This document shows, one piece after another, positions 7,315 through 38,539 of a stretch of 38,539 nucleotides of DNA (position 1 is its first letter; the number at the start of each line of letters is the position of its first letter). Under the pieces are notes generated by a model. It did not search any database. It had not been told where the DNA came from and saw nothing but the letters and a program-made list of their open reading frames with translations. The stretch lies in the IMG/VR virus record IMGVR_UViG_3300009551_000034, positions 1 through 38,539 of that record. One strand, written 5' to 3'. The stretch comes from a virus. A program made the position numbers and the translations under genes.

Positions 7315-10300
7315 CGCGTCGTCTTCTCCGACGTCCCCTCGAAGACGATCGAGATCCCATTCACTCGGAGCGGGTAGACGTCACTCGTGATCAGGATCGG
7401 GGCGAGGTTCGCGTTTCGCGCCACCTGGAAGGAGACCCCGACGCGAAGGGGCTGGATCTGCTGGACCCGAGCCTTGTTCGAGACGAGCGTCCATGGGCTC
7501 GTGTCCCGCTCGGAGGTCGCTCCGACCTCGTAGCGTGGGATCGAGCTGGTGCTCTCGGGGTACGGGGCCCGAAGGTCCATCTGTACCTGGATCTCGCGGG
7601 CGACGACGCCAGTCGGAACCCCGGCCGGAGCTGTCGGTTGCCACTCGATCGCGAGGATGCACGAGGCCATCTCGTGACCGCCGTAGTGAGTCGTCTCGGG
7701 GAGAGACCCGACCGGCGAAAACGCTGATTCGAGGGTCAGTGTCTTCGTCCCATCGTTGTCCACGACCTCCGTGATCCGGCGGAACTCATGAACTTCGGAG
7801 ATCGAGCGCGAGAGGGCGTCCCCGACCTGCACGTCCCACGGCCCGAAAGCGCTCGTGTTGACGATTGCTGTTGTCACTCCGGCGAAGGTCAGGACGGTGA
7901 CGTCGCTCCGCGCGAGGAAGTAGGAGCGATCGTATCCCTGGATGTTCGGGAGGGCCTCTCGGACCTCGTAGCGTCCGCTTCGGGCCGTGTAGAGGTTGTC
8001 GGTCTTCGAACCGGCGGCCGTGTTCCACGCCGTCGCGCCATCCTGCGTCCATTCGGAGAAGGCGCTCGTGTTGAGCGAGTAGCAGTAAATCTTCCCGACG
8101 GTCGCCGTCTCGGCGCTCGCCGGTACGCAGAAGAGGACAAGTTGACGCGACTGCCACGGGACGACGATCGCCCCGTGCGAGTCCTGCTGTACGTAGGAGA
8201 GATAGGTTCGAAGCTCGTTGTCGAGCTTCCCCGCCGATAGGCTCTGGACCGAGTCTTCCGTGATGGCGAAGAACCCGCGGTCTCCCCAGGCGAAAGCTAC
8301 GTTCTTCGCGGTAGCGACCGCCTCGGAGCGGACGAGGTGTAGGGTCGGATCGAGGAGGTCAACGCTCCACTGATCGGGGGCGACGCCGGTAACGCGCCAC
8401 AGGCCATCGGCCTTGAAGACGAGGAGCGCGTTCCGGAGAGGGACGAGGGAGAGGATCGGATACCGCTGGTCGCCGATCTCGAAGTACGACGTGAGAGACA
8501 CCGCCTCCGGCTCGTCCGTCTGGCTGAAGTAGAGTCGGTTCGCCCGGGCGTCATTCGTCGTCGGGGACGTCGTAGGGGCGTCGAGAGGTGGGGAGAAGGC
8601 GCTCGGGCAGGTCGAGGAGATCGTATGGGCCCCTCCGCCCACTCCGACCTCTTCGAGAGTGAATCCCGTGCACCCGTTCGGATAGGGTGTCGTGCCTTCC
8701 CCGTTGAAGATGTCGGGCGCGTTAGCGGACTGCCCGGAGAGGGTATCTCCGAGCTTCACCGGCGTGGTCGAGAAGGCCCACCCCTCTAGGATGTAGTCGA
8801 CGGTCGGAAGCCAGCCGTTCGGGAGCGCCTTTGTTCCCTGGAGCGCCGCGTAGTAGTTCAGCCAGTAGCAGATCGAAGCGATCGCAGACTGTCGGCCCCA
8901 GTCCCCGTAGCGAGCGTCGTGGATCGGGAAGCAGTACGGGTAGTCCCCGGACCACGGTGCGATCCTCGTATGAGCGGTGAGGTCCTGGGAAGCGCCGAAG
9001 AACTCGATCCACGCGTACAGGGTCAGCCCGTCGACTGTGATCGTGTCGCCTACGAACGCGTCCACGGTCCCGCTGTGCAGAGCGGCCGTCGTCATCGTGA
9101 TCTGGGTCGGAGAGTCGACGGATTCGATAAACGTCTGGTTTCGAACCTTCGCGCCGTCGAGGCCGGGGCCGCTCGTGCAGTCGGTCCAGTACATCCCCGG
9201 CTTCCACCCGGCCGTGGACGTGAGGCTCGTGACGATCTTCGAGCCGTTCACATACACGCCCGTCCCCGTCTTCTCGGCGAGGAGGCCTTGCGGAGAGTCC
9301 GCGTCCATCGTCCCCATCAGCGTCGTTCCCGAATCGAAGGCGTTGTTCGAGAGGGTGAGCTGGGTGTACGGGAGGCCGAGGAACGTGATCGTGTCGATCT
9401 TCAGGATCCGCGTATTCGCCGGGATGAATGGCCCGTCGACCGTCGGCCCGTATTTGAAGTTGTCGGTGAACAGCATCCCGACGACGAGCCCGGCCGCCGA
9501 GACCGAAGCGGTCGAGGCTTCGAGCGTCACCGTGTCGAGTCCGAGCGTGCACGAGGCGATCCGAAGGTTCCTCATCACCCCAGCGCGGTAGAGGTGCTGG
9601 AGGACGATCTCGGGACTGCGGTGCTTTGAGACCGTGTTCCCGTACCACATACACCGCTGCCAGTTAGCGATGGCCTGCGCCTGAGGAGGCGCGTACTTCG
9701 CGCTCCCCGCTCCGCCCTGGTCCACGTCGGTGTAGAGCTCAGCGCCTAGATCGTTCTCGGGGACGACGTCCTTCGGCGGGACGAAGTAGCCGTTGTCTAC
9801 GTCGTCGGCCGTGATCGTGTACGTGAATGCGAGGTAGTAGACGGGGATCGGAGCCTGCGCCTCGATGTTCGCCTTCGCGGTCCCCATCGGCACTGCCAGA
9901 GTCCGGTAGAACTCGACGCTATCGCCCGCGACGAGGACCGGAACGGCTCCGGCCCCGCTCGTGTAGTACGGGATGTAGAAGCGCGTCCCGGAGCCCCAGG
10001 CGTTGATCGATGGGAGACACGTCGTGATCAGGTCGTAGCTCGGAGGACTCCGGCGGATGTAGCCGTTCGAGTCTTTCTTCACGAAGACGAACTTGTAGGC
10101 GACAGCCCATTCCTGCTCGGTGATCGGGACGACGTCTTCCGGGTGTGCCGGGTCCCACCCGACGAAGAGATCCGCGTAGGACAGCTCCGCCCCGTGCCAG
10201 TCGGTGATCGGGTTCATCTCGACGCCCGCGACGCGAGCGTCAGCGGTTCCGGGAGAGCCCGCCTCGAAGGCGACAATCCCCCGACTCCCCGTCATGTAGA

Positions 10301-17967: not shown

Positions 17968-19551
17968 CTATTTACGGACGCCTCGCGCCTCTCTAAGGGC
18001 ATAAGCCCACTTCCGGGCCCGGTCCTCGGTCTCGTCCCTCGCGGGGTTCCTAAGGTGGCTAGGGACCTGCTGGGTGTAGAAGTCGAACTTCGTAGGCGGG
18101 AGAGGGTTGTGGTTCCGGTCGACGTGGCGAACGAGGTACATCGCGGCGGCGACTCCGTCGCAGTGTCCGAGGATCGAAGATTCCTCGAAGTCGGTACCGG
18201 CTCCGTTCCACATCCCATTCTCCAAGTGCGCGATCGTCTCGGTGCAATCCGGGTGGATGAGGAGGTCGCCTCTCTGGATTTCCATCCGGAGGGCCTGGAG
18301 CGCGGCGCGCTTTTCCTGGTTGTGGACAGCGCCCCACCGGACGTCTCGGGCCGGGTCGTTCGGGGCCTGTAGGCGGGAGAGGTCGGCCCGGAGCGTGGGC
18401 TGGGCGTCGATCAGACGCGTGTGCCGGCTGAAAGGCGGGGTCGTACCGGGCCAGAGCGATTGTTCCTTCGCGAGGACGGCGCGTTGGATCTCGTCGGGCC
18501 GATAGCCGCGGAGGTACAGCTCGCCCTCGACGACGATCTTCGCGAGCTGGAAGTGCCAGTAGGCGAAGAGAAGGGCCGTGAAGTGCTTCGTGAAGCCGTA
18601 GTCGCCGATTACGTACCGGTCGAAGAAGGGCGGGCGGGGAATAGCTCGAACGACCTTGTCGTGGGCTACGGCGAACTCGGGGACGAGCGCCCGCTCTGGG
18701 TTCGTGATGAACTCGGCGAGTCCTTCTCGACGCCAGACGACCTCGCTCGAACAGCCGCTCCGGAACTTCGCGATGTCGTCTTCGGAGAGGTGGGAAGGGG
18801 GGGCGTCGGTGATCTTCCGGTGGTGGTAGCTCTTCGTCTTCTTCGCTTGGTCGACGAACTTCTTGAAGGGGTGAGCGATCGACTCGGGAGGCGAGGAGGC
18901 GACGAGGATCTTCCCGTAAACACTCCCGGCCGTCTTCGAGTTCTCTCGACCTCGCCCGGCCTTCATCATCGTCGGGACGAGAATCGAGCCGACAACGTAT
19001 TCGAGGACGTCGATAAACCCGGCCTCGTCGATCACTACGAGATCGGACTTCGGCCCACGGAGGCGATTCGCCTTCTGGAGGTCTTCGGACCCCTTTAGGA
19101 CGATCACGGACCCGTTCTGAAAGCGGATCTCGTCGCCTACGATCGTCGGCTTCAGCTCGGGAGGCGCGGTCTCGGCGATGAAGTAGACGATGTCGTCAAC
19201 GAAATCGTGGAGGGACGTGATCGTCGCGCCGAGATAGGGGACTCTCGCCTTCTTCTTGTTGAGACAGACTTCGCAAGCGAGAACTAGCGCCGCAAAGGAC
19301 TTCCCGTAACGGCGAGCGATACACCAGACGCTGATGAACGCGGAGGTCGCTCGGAACTCTTCGAGTAGCTCGACCTGTCCCTCGTGGAGGAGGAAAGACA
19401 GGTCGCCCTCTCTCCACGCCTCGAACCGGAGCGACTCCTTTACGGCATCTTCGCCGTATTTCGCGATCGTCTCCGAGAGGGTGAGTTCCTCGTGTGCGTT
19501 GTTAGCGGGGTCGCCCGCGGTCCTATCCGAGCCTCGTAGGCGCGGACCCAT
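17968..19551 (-). CDS. terL: Terminase large subunit (packaging ATPase/nuclease)
   Basis: 527 residues. An adenine-binding Gln (GQVELL, near 59) is followed by a Walker A variant CIARRYGKS at 77-85 and a Walker B with catalytic Glu, LVVIDEAG at 171-178. SSPP at 219-222 fits the coupling motif. The C-terminal RNase H-like nuclease shows Asp317 (VIGDYGF), Glu343 and Asp465 (GHCDGVAAA). The protein cuts and pumps phage DNA into procapsids with the small subunit, docked on the portal. ATG at 19551 follows the previous stop by three bases. The N-terminal 20 residues are polar and a slightly later non-ATG start cannot be excluded. All motif residues needed for activity appear present. Confidence 0.95.
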   Translation of the reverse strand: MGPRLRGSDRTAGDPANNAHEELTLSETIAKYGEDAVKESLRFEAWREGDLSFLLHEGQVELLEEFRATSAFISVWCIARRYGKSFAALVLACEVCLNKKKARVPYLGATITSLHDFVDDIVYFIAETAPPELKPTIVGDEIRFQNGSVIVLKGSEDLQKANRLRGPKSDLVVIDEAGFIDVLEYVVGSILVPTMMKAGRGRENSKTAGSVYGKILVASSPPESIAHPFKKFVDQAKKTKSYHHRKITDAPPSHLSEDDIAKFRSGCSSEVVWRREGLAEFITNPERALVPEFAVAHDKVVRAIPRPPFFDRYVIGDYGFTKHFTALLFAYWHFQLAKIVVEGELYLRGYRPDEIQRAVLAKEQSLWPGTTPPFSRHTRLIDAQPTLRADLSRLQAPNDPARDVRWGAVHNQEKRAALQALRMEIQRGDLLIHPDCTETIAHLENGMWNGAGTDFEESSILGHCDGVAAAMYLVRHVDRNHNPLPPTKFDFYTQQVPSHLRNPARDETEDRARKWAYALREARGVRK

Positions 19552-25681: not shown

Positions 25682-25697
25682 CGTTTCGCCCGCCACG

Positions 25698-25711
25698 TGT
25701 ACTCTGGGCTT
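25698..25711 (+). promoter_or_regulatory. Possible leaderless promoter of the DUF6602-type gene
   Basis: TACTCT at 25700-25705 fits the TANNNT -10 pattern and lies six bases before ATG 25712, with no ribosome site in between. That spacing is typical of leaderless transcripts. No -35 is evident, and the preceding terminator isolates the gene. Confidence 0.4.
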
Positions 25712-26617
25712 ATGGCTCGACGGCCCCGATACGAGACTCATCCGACGAATCTCGACGACCTCTTCCGGGCGCAGGAGGAACTCCTCCGAGCAAAGCTAGA
25801 AGCCGCCCGGGCCGGCCTCTCCAGCCATCTTCCGGAACTCGGGGCGAACCTGGAGGTGGTGGTCAGGTCGTTCCTCCGATCGTTCCTGCCTCACGAGTAC
25901 GGCCTTGGAAGAGGCTTTGTCATCTGGCGTCCGAAGGGGTCCTCAAAGGTGTCCGTGTCGACTCAGCTCGATATCATCATCTACGACGCTCTTCGAGGAG
26001 GGCCGATCGCGGATCTCGAAACGTCTCAGGTCTATCCGATCGAACACGTGTACGGGTACGTCGAGGTGAAGACGGCCTTCGAGGATCATCTTGACTTGAC
26101 CCTGGCGAACTCCCACCGGCTCCGAACTCCGAAGCACGCCCTGCTTCAGGGACGTCCGTGGGACATTCTCCCGTACCTCGTGGGCGATCAGCAGAAGCAG
26201 GCGGAGGAAAGGATCGCGAAGGCGGATAGGCCCCTCAATCGCTTGGAGTCGATTCGTATGGATCGGAGTCGGCTCCTATGTTGGATGGTGGCTTTCGAGG
26301 GGACGCGCGCGAAGAAGCATTCGTCCGTTGAGGGACTTCAGAAGCTCTTCGAGAAAGAGTGGTTGCCTACGGAAGAGCATTCCCATCTGACTGGCGCCCT
26401 CATCCTCAGCATCAGCTCGAAGGTAAGGGAGTCGGTGTTTCTAGGTTCCCAGGCTGCTCACGGCGAGCCTCGTCAGTCCTTCGCGTTTAACGAAGGAGCG
26501 GCGCTCCGATTTTCGAAGATGATGTTGCTGAACCTCTCCGCGTTCGAGCGGATCCCGATCGGCCTCTCCCTCAATTACAACCAGTACCTAGACCCGCCGG
26601 GCTCACCTCAGCCGTAG
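25712..26617 (+). CDS. DUF6602-type protein with PD-(D/E)XK-like nuclease motif
   Basis: 301 residues. After an N-terminal helix (FRAQEELLRAKLEAARAGLS) comes HEYGLGRGFV at 61-70, then QLDIIIYD (85-92) with Asp87 and YGYVEVK (114-120) with Glu118 and Lys120, separated as in PD-(D/E)XK nucleases. Phrases such as GRGFV, QLDIIIYD and PIEHVYGYVEVK match what I know of DUF6602 proteins, found in bacteria and phages and sometimes near defence genes. Middle and C-terminal helices have no clear motif. It is a single-gene unit between two terminators, facing a DUF5677-like gene, a typical cargo arrangement. Activity as a nuclease is inferred; the substrate is unknown. Confidence 0.7.
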   Translation: MARRPRYETHPTNLDDLFRAQEELLRAKLEAARAGLSSHLPELGANLEVVVRSFLRSFLPHEYGLGRGFVIWRPKGSSKVSVSTQLDIIIYDALRGGPIADLETSQVYPIEHVYGYVEVKTAFEDHLDLTLANSHRLRTPKHALLQGRPWDILPYLVGDQQKQAEERIAKADRPLNRLESIRMDRSRLLCWMVAFEGTRAKKHSSVEGLQKLFEKEWLPTEEHSHLTGALILSISSKVRESVFLGSQAAHGEPRQSFAFNEGAALRFSKMMLLNLSAFERIPIGLSLNYNQYLDPPGSPQP

Positions 26618-29204: not shown

Positions 29205-29231
29205 GCCGAGCTGGCGCGAATCGAAGACCGC

Positions 29232-29272
29232 AACACCGCAGTTCCCTTGGGGACCGGGGATGTTGCGGTGTT
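29232..29272. terminator. Hairpin after the 28899 gene
   Basis: AACACCGCA (29232-29240) pairs with TGCGGTGTT (29264-29272), with a 23-base G/C-rich loop. The T tract is weak (CTTCGT). Likely transcription end or RNA-stabilising stem. Confidence 0.5.
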
Positions 29273-29428
29273 CTTCGTGATACGGGTCTCTGTTCCGTGG
29301 ACCGGTCGGTATTGGAGTATTGGTCTAGCGATCCGAGGGGAATCCGGAAGGAGTCGTCCGTTACAGGCTGCAAGGCGCTCGGATCTTCCGGGGACGCCAC
29401 CTCAGCAGAACGGACGTTCGATGTAGAG

Positions 29429-29967: not shown

Positions 29968-31620
29968 TCAGAAACTCGCGGAGAAGGCGATCGCCACGTC
30001 AGGCGGAAGAGATAGCTTCGTCCCCTCCCGTTTGTTCCGCCCGACGGCGGCCGAGAACGGGAAGACCTTCCCGGAAACGACGAAGCCGCCGTCTTTCCCG
30101 GGGCGAAGCGAAAGGCGCTCGCCCCGGAGGATCGCGTCGATCACGACCCGACCCCTCGCCGCGTCGCCTAGGAGGGCCGAGGAGACGTCGGAGAGTTCCG
30201 CCTCGACCACGCGCCACGTCGGCTCGGCTCGGGCGTCTTCGTGTGACGTCGTCGATTCGGCGGCCCGGAGCGTCGCCGCTTCCGCTTCGAGGTCCCGGAG
30301 CTTCGTCGCGAGGGCCGGCGACGCGCCGTCCGCGAGTAGGTCGGCGAGTCGCGCGATCTTCGCCTCGACCTCGACGAGCCGGCGCTCGGGCGAGATCGCG
30401 CCCGCCATCGTCGTCTTCGCGGAGGCGCGCTCGCGATCGACGTAGCGCTCGTACGCCGCCCGGAGCTTCGCTCGACGGGCCGGATCCGAGAGAACCTCCT
30501 GAAGCCGACCGAGGATGGCGTCGTGCGCCCGAGCGGCGTTCACGCTCGACGCGAAGGAGCAGGCCCCTCGATCGTGCGCCTGACACCTGAAGTATTGAAG
30601 AGCCGGCTTCGCGCCGGACTTCTCGTCCTTCGACTGTCGCTTTCGACTCTTCGTCCCCGTAAGTCCGAGTCGCCCGCCGCACTCTGGACAAGCGATACGA
30701 CCCGCAAGGATCCAGCGAGAAGGCCGATGCTGCCGCCCCGAAGGGAAGTGCGCCTTCATGTACTCGCGGTGAAGAGCCTGGACTCGTTCCCAGGTCGCGA
30801 CGTCCACGATCGCGAGATGGGCGAACGAGTGAGTGGTCCCGCCTTCCTTGCGGTGGATCGAACGCTTCCGACCGTCTTTAATCACGACCTGTCGACGTCC
30901 GATCGTGACGCGGCCGATGTAGTCCTCGCGAGCGAGGATGGTGCACAGCGTCTGTACGACCCAGCCTCGTCCGGTCGGGCTCGGGATCTTCGCCTTCCGC
31001 AAGGCGTCGATGATCTCGTGGTAGCTGTTCCCCTCGGCTCGAAGCCGGAAGATGCGGCGAACTACCTCGGCCCTTTCCGGATCGATCTCGGTGGGTCGTT
31101 GACCGTTCCCCGCTGTCGGCGCTCCTCTTCTGTATCCGTACGGAATCTTCCCGGTCGAGCAGCCCTTCGCCGCGAGGACTCGAAGCGCCGCTCCCGTACG
31201 TTCGCCGATCGTCTCGCGCTCCCACGCGACGACGCTGATGATGACGTTCAACGTCATTCTTCCGCTCGCGGAACGCGTGTCGATTCGATCCGAGAAGCTG
31301 ACGAGGTGGAACTTGTCCCCGAAGAACTCGGCGACGAGTCGGGACCAGTCGCCAAGATTACGTGTCAGGCGATCGAGCTTGAAGATGACGAGCGTGTCGG
31401 CTTCTCCGGCTTGAAGCCGAGCGAGAGCCCGCGTGAGACCTGGCCGGTTCATCGTCGCGGCCGAGAAGCCTTCGTCCGAGACGATGTCGAGGAGTTCGAG
31501 ATCCTGGTTCGCGCAGTAGCCCGTGATCTTCTCCCTCTGCACGGCGAGCCCGAGGCCGGAGATGGCCTGTTCCTCGGTGCTGACACGCGCGTAACCGATC
31601 GCACGACTAGGACGCGTCAT
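29968..31620 (-). CDS. Large serine recombinase (phage integrase)
   Basis: 550 residues from ATG 31620, with GAGAAG about seven bases upstream. The resolvase domain (7-150) has GYARVST with nucleophile Ser14 and FKLDRLTRN (80-88) with catalytic Arg residues. The Recombinase domain (about 160-290) holds KIPYGYRR and WVVQTLCTILAREDYIG. A zinc ribbon uses Cys311, 314, 346 and 354. A coiled-coil region (about 395-455) fits the large serine integrase layout. It would integrate the phage between attP and attB without host factors; excision normally needs a directionality factor, not identified here. The in-frame extension upstream is low-complexity and rejected as start. Catalytic residues look intact. 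Confidence 0.93.
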   Translation of the reverse strand: MTRPSRAIGYARVSTEEQAISGLGLAVQREKITGYCANQDLELLDIVSDEGFSAATMNRPGLTRALARLQAGEADTLVIFKLDRLTRNLGDWSRLVAEFFGDKFHLVSFSDRIDTRSASGRMTLNVIISVVAWERETIGERTGAALRVLAAKGCSTGKIPYGYRRGAPTAGNGQRPTEIDPERAEVVRRIFRLRAEGNSYHEIIDALRKAKIPSPTGRGWVVQTLCTILAREDYIGRVTIGRRQVVIKDGRKRSIHRKEGGTTHSFAHLAIVDVATWERVQALHREYMKAHFPSGRQHRPSRWILAGRIACPECGGRLGLTGTKSRKRQSKDEKSGAKPALQYFRCQAHDRGACSFASSVNAARAHDAILGRLQEVLSDPARRAKLRAAYERYVDRERASAKTTMAGAISPERRLVEVEAKIARLADLLADGASPALATKLRDLEAEAATLRAAESTTSHEDARAEPTWRVVEAELSDVSSALLGDAARGRVVIDAILRGERLSLRPGKDGGFVVSGKVFPFSAAVGRNKREGTKLSLPPDVAIAFSASF

Positions 31621-33108: not shown

Positions 33109-33356
33109 TCGCCGCTCGTAAACGCCCGTAGGAGACGTCGGGTCGATCCGGACAGCGGTCGGCCCGACGTCGAGCCTCGACGCCTTCCTGAAGCTCGTAG
33201 TTGGCCGCGCGTGGTCCTTATTGGAGACGTTGGAAAACCAGAGCGAAATCAACGCTTCGGTAGTTAGTCGATAAACCGGCCTTAGGTACGAGAGGCCGAG
33301 AGCGTAACTAGATACGAGACGGCCCCAAGGCCCGAAAGTCAAGAAGGAGAAAACCG
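33109..33356. promoter_or_regulatory. 248-base control region before the RHH gene
   Basis: Contains a 9-pair hairpin, GACGTCGGG with CCCGACGTC (33134-33171), probably the end of the preceding transcript. A more AT-rich part (about 33220-33300) is the likely promoter and operator zone for the RHH gene. No clear -35/-10 pair is visible. Confidence 0.45.
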
Positions 33357-33515
33357 ATGAGCAAGTCGAATCAAGTGAAGATCAACGTGACCCCGGAGAT
33401 GTTGATCGCGATCGATGCCTGGAGGCGTCGTCGCGTGATCGACCACTCCGAGATCCTCTCCCGCCCGGAGGCGATCCGCCGGATGGTGTCCGAGTCCCTG
33501 GGAGGTGTCCGGTGA
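33357..33515 (+). CDS. Ribbon-helix-helix DNA-binding protein, 52 residues
   Basis: SKSNQVKINVTPEMLIAID: a short strand (QVKINV), a helix (PEMLIAIDAWRRRRV) and a second helix after LSR (PEAIRRMVSESL). This is the CopG/Arc-like RHH pattern, in which paired strands insert into the major groove as dimers. ATG at 33357 has AGAAGGAG seven bases upstream. Its TGA overlaps the GTG of the 92-residue gene, so both are made together. It could be a repressor, a copy-control protein or an antitoxin. The gene is short and would be missed by length filters. Confidence 0.75.
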   Translation: MSKSNQVKINVTPEMLIAIDAWRRRRVIDHSEILSRPEAIRRMVSESLGGVR

Positions 33516-33796: not shown

Positions 33797-33825
33797 GAAG
33801 GCCGCCCTGACGAGGGGCGGCCTTC
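33797..33825 (+). terminator. Hairpin after the RHH gene pair
   Basis: GAAGGCCGCCC (33797-33807) pairs perfectly with GGGCGGCCTTC (33815-33825), loop TGACGAG. No T tract follows, so termination efficiency is uncertain. Confidence 0.55.
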
Positions 33826-33858: not shown

Positions 33859-33901
33859 ACCTTACCCCTTCGGTAAGGTCTGAACGAAGCGACCCGTTCA
33901 G
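33859..33901. promoter_or_regulatory. Two adjacent inverted repeats before the double-RHH gene
   Basis: ACCTTACC (33859-33866) pairs with GGTAAGGT (33872-33879), and CTGAACG (33880-33886) with CGTTCAG (33895-33901). They abut each other 35-78 bases before the double-RHH start, a usual place for an operator. Binding by an RHH protein is inferred. Confidence 0.5.
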
Positions 33902-33936
33902 GAATCAACCTGGCGGGCCGGAGAGAGGAACGGCGA

Positions 33937-34737
33937 ATGCGGAAGCTGACCCCGGAAGAACGGTCCGAGCGGGAGAGGTCACAACGTGCGAAGCGCAACG
34001 AGCGCTTCCGCAACAAGGACCAGTCGCTCAAGCGAGTCCAGGTCTACGTCGAGGGATACCTGGCTCGGTGGGTCCTGAGGATCGCGGACGCTCTAAGGCT
34101 CACCGTACAGGAACTGATCCACGACCTACTTCGGTCCTACTGCTCTCGTGCCGGAGGCGTCCGGAGCCTCCCCGCTAGTCCGAGATGGTCCCTTCCGGAG
34201 GACCCGCGAGGGCTTGAACGAGTCGACCTCCTGTTGACCGCGGAGGAGATCCAGGTCCTTCACCGCGGAAAGAAGCGGATCCCCTCCCTGTCCCGAGGGA
34301 GCGTGATCGAGATCATCTTGATGGAGTCGATCCGCTTCCGAGGGAAGTGGGCCTGGTTCACACACCCTGATACAGGCCACGAGGTTCCTCTCTTCGGTCG
34401 CGTGGAAGATCCCAAGTACGGATCTTACATCAACGGTCTGGTCCAACAGCCCGAAGAGGCCCGCTGGTACGACCGGTACACCGCGAGGTCCATTCGCAGC
34501 AAGGTCGCTCAGGCCTCGTCGCCTTCGGCGTTCCGAGAGGCGCTCCGCGCTTTCTCCATCACCCACGCCCCCTACGTCCAGGAGATGTACTTCGGAGGCT
34601 TCACCCCTCCGGAACCCCCTCCTCCGTCAACCCACAAGGCTATCCGGTCCTGGGTCGAAGACGGAGAAGGCCGTCCTCCCTCGTCTCGTCACGGATCTAC
34701 CCCTCTCTCTCCGGAAGAGGATGAAGATGCAGCCTAA
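33937..34737 (+). CDS. DNA-binding protein with two RHH-like segments
   Basis: 266 residues. A basic N-terminus (1-30) leads into a first RHH-like unit at 33-69 (RVQVYVEGYLARWVLRI, then TVQELIHDLLRSYC). A second lies at 95-134 (RVDLLLTAEEIQVLHRG, then SLSRGSVIEIILMESIR). Two units in one chain would give a pseudo-dimer that reads an asymmetric or paired site. A further alpha/beta region follows (about 135-215), and the end is Pro-rich and acidic. Inverted repeats just upstream suggest self-control, and the 29-base inverted repeat after its stop is a likely second target. No exact family is recognised; a repressor or origin-binding role is inferred. Confidence 0.6.
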   Translation: MRKLTPEERSERERSQRAKRNERFRNKDQSLKRVQVYVEGYLARWVLRIADALRLTVQELIHDLLRSYCSRAGGVRSLPASPRWSLPEDPRGLERVDLLLTAEEIQVLHRGKKRIPSLSRGSVIEIILMESIRFRGKWAWFTHPDTGHEVPLFGRVEDPKYGSYINGLVQQPEEARWYDRYTARSIRSKVAQASSPSAFREALRAFSITHAPYVQEMYFGGFTPPEPPPPSTHKAIRSWVEDGEGRPPSSRHGSTPLSPEEDEDAA

Positions 34738-34745
34738 CCAGTCCT

Positions 34746-34950
34746 CAGTCTTTTCAACTACATATCCCCGGTTTTCCGTCTCCTCTGTCTATATAGACCG
34801 AGGGCATTTTCAGGAATCGACCGAACAGAAAAATCAAATCCCCGTCGGGCTCTCCGGCGGCGCAGCCGCCGGCCTAACTGAAACCCGAAGTTCTATATAG
34901 ACAGAGGAGACGGAAAACCGAACCTAAGTGCTTGTAATGATTGAAGACTG
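34746..34950. repeat. Nested inverted repeat with perfect 29-base arms
   Basis: Arm 34769-34797 is the exact reverse complement of 34892-34920, with 94 bases between. Each arm ends in a palindrome at the inner side (GTCTATATAGAC at 34787-34798; TCTATATAGA at 34892-34901). Outside, CAGTCTTTTCAA (34746-34757) faces TTGAAGACTG (34941-34950). Inside, GGG-cat-TTTCAG (34802-34813) faces CTGAAACCC (34878-34886), and a GC hairpin CCGGCGGC-GCA-GCCGCCGG (34854-34872) sits near the right arm. The whole unit fills the gap between the double-RHH gene and the 34968 gene. It could be a replication origin, cruciform operator, invertible switch or structured RNA. I know no named element like it. Confidence 0.9.
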
Positions 34951-34967
34951 ATAAAGGAGGTGTCCGT

Positions 34968-35417
34968 GTGGAAGAACTGAACGAAGCGAAAGCCTATGAA
35001 GCTCTGGTACTGAGGGATGTTCGAGGGGAGTCCTCCGAGACGGAGGCGGAGGTCCTCTGTGAGTCCCTTGAGGCTGCGATCGAGTGGAAGGACACCCTGA
35101 CTCGCTTCTGCCAGGAGGTAGAGGCTGAGCTGACGCAGATCAGACTCGACGTAGATCAGGCTCGGGAACAGAGCTTCAAGATCGGCCCGTCCGGGAAGCC
35201 CAGGTACATGAGGTACAAGACCGAGAGGGAGGCGCGGAAGGCCGACCTTGTAGCGTTCAAGACGGCCTGTATCGCGAAGCTGAAGGAAGCGAAAGAGGCG
35301 GTCCGCTCCTTCCGTGAGGAAAAGAGCGGACAGGAGAAGCCGGGGATCTTCGCGAGGTTGGACCGCCTGGAGGAGATCCTCCTTCGGATCGAGAGCCAGA
35401 TCGGACGGAGGGTGTAA
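34968..35417 (+). CDS. Coiled-coil hypothetical protein, 149 residues
   Basis: GTG at 34968 has AAAGGAGG seven bases upstream, one of the strongest ribosome sites in the window and only three bases outside the inverted-repeat unit. The product is long charged helices (TEAEVLCESLEAAIEWKDTL, EVEAELTQIRLDVDQAREQS, RLDRLEEILLRIESQIGRR). No enzymatic motif. The inverted repeat may control this gene and the two coupled after it. Confidence 0.65.
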   Translation: MEELNEAKAYEALVLRDVRGESSETEAEVLCESLEAAIEWKDTLTRFCQEVEAELTQIRLDVDQAREQSFKIGPSGKPRYMRYKTEREARKADLVAFKTACIAKLKEAKEAVRSFREEKSGQEKPGIFARLDRLEEILLRIESQIGRRV

Positions 35418-35419
35418 CG

Positions 35420-35713
35420 ATGAGGCGGAGGATCGCGATGAAGGACGACTTTGAAGACGAGATCGAAGATCTGTTCGCGAAGCCCCTTTCGGCGGAGGAG
35501 CTGAAGGCGGAGGCGAGAGACCGCAGACAGGAGAACATCGACCTGAATCTGATCCTCGGGTGTCCGATCGATTTCCCACCCTCGGAGGCAATGATTCAGT
35601 ACGAGGGGAAGCCTCTGAGGCACCTTCTGACGGCCTCAGAGAGAATGGAGATGAAGAGGACGCTCCCCGGAAGGTTGATCAGACCCTTTGCGGATGAGAA
35701 AGTCTTGAAGTGA
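35420..35713 (+). CDS. Hypothetical protein, 97 residues
   Basis: ATG at 35420 lies two bases after the previous stop; ATG 35438 is an alternative. Begins RRRIAMKDDFEDEIEDLFAK, with acidic helices, then LILGCPIDFPPSEAMIQYEG and RHLLTASERMEMKRTLPGRL. Possibly a small regulatory partner. It overlaps the next gene by GTGA. No family is recognised. Confidence 0.6.
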   Translation: MRRRIAMKDDFEDEIEDLFAKPLSAEELKAEARDRRQENIDLNLILGCPIDFPPSEAMIQYEGKPLRHLLTASERMEMKRTLPGRLIRPFADEKVLK

Positions 35714-36306
35714 CGAAGAAGAACTTCACTCCACCCCCGTCCCCGAAGACGACGATCACCCTCACGGAGGAATCCGTCCGCCAGCTCCGGCTCGTTCGCG
35801 ACAAGATGGGTGGTTCGCTCGACGAGGCCGTGGCGTACCTGGTCGCGTTGTTCTCGGGCGACGGGGGGGCCGTCGAACTTCCGCGCCAGCCGGAGTTGGC
35901 CTCGGGGCCGACGTACGAGGGCGAGATCTTCAGGTCGCACGCCATCGTCCGGGACGGCGCGTTCCTCGTCGAGACGACCATCCACGAGGCGAAGGAGGGG
36001 GACGTCTTCGACGATGGCGCCCGACGCTGGCTCGCGGGGATGTACGACTACGTCTGGTCCAACAAGGCGACCTTCGACCGCGTAGGAGCCGAGTTCGATC
36101 GTCACCTCGACCGAATGGCCACGAAAACGAAGAAGACGACCGGGAAGCCCGGGAAGCGTCCCTACAGGTTCTCGTCGGAGGAGGCCAGGGAACGCGTCCG
36201 CGGTGCCAATCTTGGTGTGAAGCGTCCCAAGTCTCCGGAGACAATCGCGAAGATCAAAGCCACGTGGGCCAAGAAAAGCGCGGTGAAAGCCAACAAGTCA
36301 GAATAG
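35710..36306 (+). CDS. RHH N-terminus joined to a NUMOD-like DNA-binding C-terminus
   Basis: 198 residues from GTG 35710 (GTGA overlap). Residues 15-49 fit RHH: strand TITLTEE, helix SVRQLRLVRDKMG, helix SLDEAVAYLVALF. The middle (about 60-130) is alpha/beta. Residues of about 150-190 (FSSEEARERVRGANLGVKRP, SPETIAKIKATWAKK) match the NUMOD3-type pattern usually attached to homing nucleases, where it contacts DNA. No nuclease core lies in this protein, but the next gene is an HNH nuclease. A two-site DNA-binding regulator, or a recruited fragment of a homing element, are both possible. Confidence 0.65.
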   Translation: MTKKNFTPPPSPKTTITLTEESVRQLRLVRDKMGGSLDEAVAYLVALFSGDGGAVELPRQPELASGPTYEGEIFRSHAIVRDGAFLVETTIHEAKEGDVFDDGARRWLAGMYDYVWSNKATFDRVGAEFDRHLDRMATKTKKTTGKPGKRPYRFSSEEARERVRGANLGVKRPKSPETIAKIKATWAKKSAVKANKSE

Positions 36307-36354: not shown

Positions 36355-36879
36355 ATGGACTGGAGATCGATGATCGGAGAGCCGGACGAGAGAGGGTGTC
36401 GGCGATGGGTCGGGACGTGGCTGGTAGGGGGCCGTCCTCAGGTCCGAGTCGACGGGAAGAATCAGTACGTGGCGCGAATCCTCTTGAGCGAGTCGCTCGG
36501 GAGACCGATTCGCTCGGGCTACTACGCACTACATACGTGTGACGTAGGTACGTGCTGCGAGGTGAGCCACCTCTTCGAGGGGACACCGCGTAGGAACATT
36601 CTGGATGCGGTAGAGAAGGGGCGATGGACCCAGGCGGGCTACCACCCTCGGATCGAGCCTGATCAAGCGCGCTGGATTCGGGAGCAGTACGCGAGCGGGA
36701 ACCGGTGGTGGACGAGGAGGCGGCTGGCCGATCGGTTCGCCGTTTCCGAGAACACGATCACCGAGATCGTCCGCGGTCATCGGTTCCGGACGGCCGGAGG
36801 ACCGATCTCAGGGCCGCGTGGAGCAGGCGGTCGTCCCGTGTCTCCAGCAGGCGACCTCGCCGCTTCTCCGTCTCGGTGA
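36355..36879 (+). CDS. HNH homing-type endonuclease with C-terminal HTH
   Basis: 174 residues. The HNH_3-type core has CRRWVGTWLVGGRPQVRV, then LHTCDVGTCCEVSHLFEGT with His60, Cys62, Cys67, Cys68 and His72, and Asn81 in RRNIL. The C-terminal part ADRFAVSENTITEIVRGHRF is a helix-turn-helix that would give site contact. Such free-standing nucleases spread by cutting alleles that lack them. ATG at 36355 has GGAGG six bases upstream. Its last 122 bases overlap the end of an opposing gene. All core metal and catalytic residues appear present. Confidence 0.88.
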   Translation: MDWRSMIGEPDERGCRRWVGTWLVGGRPQVRVDGKNQYVARILLSESLGRPIRSGYYALHTCDVGTCCEVSHLFEGTPRRNILDAVEKGRWTQAGYHPRIEPDQARWIREQYASGNRWWTRRRLADRFAVSENTITEIVRGHRFRTAGGPISGPRGAGGRPVSPAGDLAASPSR

Positions 36880-37828: not shown

Positions 37829-38539
37829 TCAAAGGTCCATCGGGTGTCGAAACACGCAGAGCGAGTCGAACTCGAAGTAGTAGTTTGACGTTGTGCCGGT
37901 GTTGCCGAGAAACGCGAGCCCGCACGTATCGAGCGTCGCCGAGTTCCACCCGGATCCGAACGCGCCGACGGAAGCGGCAAACGTCTTCTCGTTCATCATA
38001 TCAGTGTTCCTCGCCGACGAGGACGCGGCCGGAACGTCGAGTTGAAAGTTGCCTCGGAACTTCGGCGGAGACCCGGCGGTCTTTCGCGCCGTCGTGTTGT
38101 AGGCGAACAAGGCTGAAAGGGAGCGATCGTCTCCGAGGCCGAGGTTGAGATCGAACTGAGGCCAGGATGGAGTTCCACCAGACAACGAGGTGGTGCCCCC
38201 GGCGATGTAGGCGTATCGCGTCGCGGTGCCGACCTGGGTCATCGCCGATAGCGAGTAGTGCGAAGAACCGGTGAGCTTGTTCCCGAGGAACGAGGCTCCT
38301 GCCGAGTACCACTCGGTGTAGTGAGTGAAGTCGGAGATCCCGACGAGCCGGAAGCTGAAGATGTACCGCTTCGCGTCCGTGTCGTAGAGCGGAAGGGTGA
38401 GGTCGTTGATCATGATTGACGTCATGAGCAGACCGGTCGCCTTCGTCGGGAATTTCACCCGGAGACGCGGACCCTCGGCGCCCGAGACCTTCGTGACCTG
38501 TACGCTTCCCGTGGCGATCTCGTCCTTACAGACGGTGAA
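37829..38539 (-). CDS. Tail fibre / receptor-binding protein, C-terminal part
   Basis: Continuation of the gene that begins at 555 on the left end. Non-redundant bases are 37829-38416; 38417-38539 repeat bases 1-123. This part holds residues of about 186-380: RYIFSFRLVGISDFTHYTEW, YSLSAMTQVGTATRYAYIAG, a Ser/Thr/Asn-rich middle and GTTSNYYFEFDSLCVFRHP at the end. It reads as a beta-rich receptor-binding head. The C-terminal end overlaps no other gene; the stop is 12 bases before the holin-like ATG at 37817. Reading the left or right half alone would give a false truncated gene. Confidence 0.8.
   Translation of the reverse strand, partial: FTVCKDEIATGSVQVTKVSGAEGPRLRVKFPTKATGLLMTSIMINDLTLPLYDTDAKRYIFSFRLVGISDFTHYTEWYSAGASFLGNKLTGSSHYSLSAMTQVGTATRYAYIAGGTTSLSGGTPSWPQFDLNLGLGDDRSLSALFAYNTTARKTAGSPPKFRGNFQLDVPAASSSARNTDMMNEKTFAASVGAFGSGWNSATLDTCGLAFLGNTGTTSNYYFEFDSLCVFRHPMDL
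38417..38539. repeat. Right copy of 123-base end repeat (circular overlap)
   Basis: Identical to 1-123, base for base. It should be removed once to obtain the 38,416-base unit. Confidence 0.95.

Follow-up and report, generated by a model that had tools for sequence, protein, structure and literature searches.

Analysis of the IMG/VR virus record IMGVR_UViG_3300009551_000034 (38,539 nucleotides in full, hereafter the window) identified a 212-base element at positions 34739 to 34950 that consists of a 59-bp imperfect inverted repeat around a 94-nt spacer. The element is a genuine and highly unusual singleton, and it is not due to chance. Judging from its anatomy, we tentatively read it as a DNA-level site in which two inverted 29-bp protein-binding sites would form the operator or control region of the genes at 34968 to 36306, probably bound by a ribbon-helix-helix (RHH) protein. 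A sequence-only reading had listed five candidates for this locus (a replication origin, a cooperative operator with a cruciform, an invertible promoter, a miniature element, and a long hairpin RNA); the anatomy best favors a protein-bound control or replication site, the invertible promoter has weak support, and the cruciform and the miniature element are disfavored.

The window ends in an exact 123-bp direct repeat (1 to 123 and 38417 to 38539), which makes it probable that the record is complete, with a circular genome of 38,416 bp. The phage is temperate, podovirus-like, and previously unplaced. Its terminase, P22-like portal, and other structural genes lie on the minus strand, and a large serine integrase is encoded at 29968 to 31620. 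The distant relatives of the phage are a Silvanigrella phage and metagenomic viruses, with about 25 to 33% protein identity. Two of the metagenomic relatives (L126 and L128), reached through the terminase and portal by two-sequence alignment, have structural genes alone in common with it; their early regions are unrelated, and they contain neither the element nor RHH_1 matches. A scan of the species genomes with the portal gave no match. Polymerase, helicase, and primase genes were not recognized among the genes tested with Pfam and PHROGs, a result that does not in itself prove their absence.

The two inner arms of the element (34769 to 34797, plus strand, and 34892 to 34920, minus strand) are exact reverse complements of 29 bases, as had been described from the letters alone. 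They are continued outward by a left outer arm (34739 to 34768, plus) and a right outer arm (34921 to 34950, minus), such that 48 of the 59 positions across the complete arms (34739 to 34797 and 34892 to 34950) form Watson-Crick pairs, with 29/29 in the inner part and 19/30 in the outer part. The 29-bp units are thus sharp-edged on both sides, with perfect pairing within them, 19/30 outside, and no immediate match inward. The element starts one base past the TAA stop codon of the upstream gene (34735 to 34737) and ends two bases short of the ribosome-binding site AAAGGAGG (34953 to 34960) of the downstream gene. The asymmetric spacer (34798 to 34891) contains the TTTCAG/CTGAAA pair and the GC hairpin noted earlier, both of which were seen by folding. 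A small open reading frame (34721 to 34900) spans the element; codon scoring did not select it, and it was dropped as a gene. An assembly artifact is unlikely because the terminal overlap of 123 bp, which we infer probably reflects the assembly k-mer, exceeds the 59-bp arms in length.

The inward end of each arm is formed by the palindrome TCTATATAGA, which occurs in the genome only at 34788 to 34797 and 34892 to 34901. The left copy widens to a 22-bp near-perfect, operator-like palindrome with one mismatched pair (CCTCtGTCTATATAGACcGAGG, 34782 to 34803), the sole 22-mer of such palindrome grade in the genome, while the right copy consists of the 10-mer core alone. The earlier proposal of a GTCTATATAGAC-type palindrome in each arm consequently holds for the left arm, where 12 bp are exact, and falls one base short in the right arm. 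In addition, the spacer holds the 14-bp sequence TTCAGGAATCgACC (34809 to 34822, plus strand), which has 13 of 14 positions in common with 33897 to 33910 just upstream of the RHH gene. This is a weak lead, as shuffling this one pair produced as high a match score about 3% of the time, uncorrected for 15 regions.

Inverted repeats of this length are rare. When the window was simulated 60 times with a first-order Markov model, perfect inverted repeats within 400 nt reached maximum lengths of 11 to 15 bases, against 29 here; in other viral loci, 1.115 Mb in total, the maximum was 23, with none of at least 25. The predicted RNA fold reaches -100 kcal/mol with a z-score of -11 on either strand; in a genome-wide folding scan the element scored -10.1 and the next window -4.9. 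Its GC content is 50% in a genome of 64%, the lowest of any 200-bp stretch, in agreement with the initial impression that it is richer in AT than its surroundings.

Searches for relatives of the element support its description as a singleton. Rfam covariance models gave no match at gathering or permissive thresholds, blastn searches of phages and plasmids with the element returned nothing meaningful, and 20- to 21-mers taken from the arm were absent from the viral and species-genome collections. These searches, together with those of the viral contigs, agree with the earlier statement that no known element is matched. The genome itself carries no second copy of the element and no other copies of the palindrome near other genes. 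The core 14-mer CTGTCTATATAGAC was found 120 times in viral contigs, in each case as an unrelated chance site that lacked arms, and a search for paired TCTATATAGA copies 80 to 110 nt apart produced 35 matches with no convincing extension of the arms past the core. The best-looking of these paired matches (the L143 group) was rejected as AT-rich low-complexity DNA beside an IS3-like transposase. The flanking proteins likewise had no relatives among the viral contigs, phages, and plasmids.

The gene upstream of the element (33937 to 34737, plus strand) encodes 266 amino acids with two predicted RHH units and is the candidate for a protein that would bind the arms. Its product matches the NCBIfam model PRK11675, a LexA-regulated protein that we take to be of an RHH-type family, with an E value of 1e-6 and a score of 29 bits, where the cut-off is 62. 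Two beta-alpha-alpha units appear in its structure models, which are of low confidence. There was no Pfam match, and Foldseek searches with the models gave nothing below an E value of 0.001; the weak matches include chains of F plasmid TraY. The identification of this product as a double RHH protein, made earlier from the translation, is therefore plausible on the predicted fold, the family match being below its cut-off. Another RHH repressor-like gene, encoding a 52-aa RHH protein, starts at 33357. Downstream, a short plus-strand cluster begins with a gene for 149 amino acids (34968 to 35417), whose GTG start lies 7 nt past GGAGG; the AAAGGAGG site that had been attributed to this gene is present at that spacing. 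The cluster also includes a gene for 198 amino acids (35710 to 36306, plus strand) with an RHH-like N terminus and a NUMOD3-like stretch at its end, both recognized by eye; its product had no family match. An HNH endonuclease gene (36355 to 36879, PHROG 59) closes the early cluster.

These features are the basis of the reading as a DNA control site. The two 29-bp arms would represent a single protein-binding site present in two inverted copies, with the TCTATATAGA palindrome at the inward end of either copy. An RHH protein, most likely the 33937 to 34737 product, would bind both arms, and the bound protein would bridge or loop the 94-bp spacer and thereby control transcription of the downstream cluster from 34968 to 36306. 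The binding of this product to the arms, the presence of a promoter, and the regulation are all inferred. An operator is consistent with the repeated palindromic and inverted site, with the RHH repressor-like gene at 33357, and with the recurrence of the 14-bp spacer motif upstream of the RHH gene. The chance that all 29 inner pairs would match at the divergence of the outer arms is about 2e-6, and the inner unit has therefore been selected or recently homogenized. The sharp edges, the Watson-Crick pairing, the AT-rich arms, and the DNA-type palindrome make DNA sites more probable than RNA. Against an operator, a simple one needs no 59-bp repeat that spans exactly from a stop codon to a ribosome-binding site, the palindrome does not recur near other genes, the structure models of the presumed binder are of low confidence, and a search of the element revealed no sigma-70-like promoter, although the promoters of the host may be of another kind.

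The RHH reading has its nearest parallel in F plasmid TraY, in which a single chain with two RHH units constitutes the whole RHH dimer fold (PMC12117103). Two RHH units per chain are likewise predicted for the 33937 to 34737 product, and the TraY sites at oriT resemble the element in being short palindromic or inverted, AT-containing sites near the gene of an RHH protein, in the phage a predicted one. The phage differs from the F system in having no relaxase or oriT, and no sequence homology has been shown between the two. Typical RHH sites are also much shorter than 29-bp perfect inverted arms placed 94 bp apart. Should the neighboring protein bind the arms, the element would reveal early-region control in a divergent temperate phage without recognized replication or classical repressor genes, and it would provide a defined pair of a protein and a 29-bp site for direct testing.

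An intercistronic RNA hairpin is possible, though on the whole unlikely. If the flanking genes are co-transcribed, which this explanation assumes, their message would form a stem of great stability, and its cleavage by RNase III would separate and stabilize two messages as in the T7 early mRNA. The flanking genes are co-oriented, and a stable stem does lie between them; since this stem fits exactly from the stop codon to the ribosome-binding site, any RNA that reads through the gap would adopt it, and the same fold was predicted in a longer context. The intercistronic comparison for such a read-through stem is provided by the T7 RNase III sites (PMC4858673). The stem of the element shares with the T7 hairpins its place between co-oriented early genes and its end beside a ribosome-binding site, but it is much longer (59 bp with a 94-nt loop), single, without G-U pairs, and furnished with internal DNA palindromes. 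The pairing itself weighs somewhat against an RNA function. All 29 inner pairs are Watson-Crick, with no G-U pair, and the 11 outer mismatches include 2 (plus strand) or 3 (minus strand) G-U combinations against about 1.8 expected at random. The outer G-U count being near random and the inner count zero, selection for pairing in RNA is thus not apparent, an argument drawn from few positions in one sequence. Moreover, the two strands fold equally well, the AT-rich arms with their DNA-type palindromes would be superfluous for an RNA, and nothing comparable is found elsewhere in the genome.

A lytic replication origin, in which an initiator encoded next door would act on the inverted sites and open an AT-rich region, is the more doubtful explanation. 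No other 200-bp stretch of the genome is as AT-rich as the element, and the detrended circular GC skew reaches its lowest point within it, at 34,886, and its highest at 18,907. The missing match to any replication gene among those tested with Pfam and PHROGs also counts in its favor, as does a distant relative (G002) in which a repeat- and hairpin-rich stretch (about 9790 to 9960) follows straight after a primase-like gene. The GC-skew support is nevertheless weak: the change-point likelihood of a two-arc model hardly varies between 25.8 and 35.0 kb and slightly favors 28.3 kb, block permutations give p values of only 0.03 to 0.07, and fourfold sites place the minimum elsewhere. The resemblance to iteron or inverted-repeat phage origins lies in an AT-rich repeat region beside a gene for a DNA-binding protein and near a GC-skew minimum, but the element has no DnaA boxes, direct iterons, or iteron family, and no known initiator or helicase gene was identified here. 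A bolder version, in which the element is a lytic origin or master switch and a tandem RHH initiator on two inverted 29-bp sites represents a new kind of initiator-origin pair, is a long shot. An origin at this locus would suggest a so far undescribed family of initiators.

It is rather improbable that the element is inert, either as an inverted duplication produced by template switching or as a relic of a foldback or miniature mobile element. The outer arms look decayed, the singleton has no conserved relatives in any search, and it fills an intergenic gap, all of which would suit a relic. However, the longest target duplication is 3 bp, where chance usually gives 4 to 5, and neither a second genomic copy nor a 20- to 21-mer match of the arm in the genome or viral collections was found, so the element has neither the target-site duplication nor the multiple copies of a miniature inverted-repeat transposable element. 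That the inner arms are perfect while the outer ones have decayed further implies selection or recent homogenization.

It is very unlikely that the element is an invertible switch, in which the 94 bp enclosed by the 29-bp arms would be flipped by a recombinase. Exact inverted arms around an asymmetric segment are shared with fimS and the Bacteroides capsule promoters, and the phage does encode a serine recombinase; this enzyme, however, the sole recombinase found, has the architecture of a large integrase, and its gene is over 3 kb from the element; no dedicated or cognate invertase was found beside the arms, and the spacer is very short, shorter than the segments of those systems, with no promoter-like site detected. 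The cruciform attached to the earlier operator proposal is disfavored as well, because a 94-base spacer makes extrusion from duplex DNA unlikely. Other identities were rejected: an intrinsic terminator (no T run after a short GC stem), a protelomerase site (the spacer interrupts the palindrome, and no protelomerase family was found), and an attachment site.

Several other features were observed in the genome and in the distant relative. A second AT-rich intergenic region (33109 to 33356), upstream of the gene for the 52-aa RHH protein, contains repeated TACGAGAG/TACGAGAC words and is a possible operator. A GC-rich, terminator-like hairpin (AAGGCCGCCC/GGGGCGGCCTT, 33797 to 33824) lies just upstream of the 33937 gene and is followed by two more hairpins. 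A DUF6602 protein (25697 to 26617) is matched in PADLOC by PD-(D/E)xK and NucC-type effector nucleases (E values of 1.6e-22 and 4e-14) and is possibly a phage-borne defense effector. Another hairpin, with 24-nt arms and a 3-nt loop, is located between two plus-strand genes at 29223 to 29273. In G002, the stretch directly after the primase-like gene (L135:9790-9960) consists of dense CGGGAACC/GGTTCCCG repeats and nested hairpins and is a candidate replication origin of that virus, and an operator-like inverted repeat with one CGTACGTACG word per arm (L136:17790-17859) lies across the start of a gene on the minus strand.
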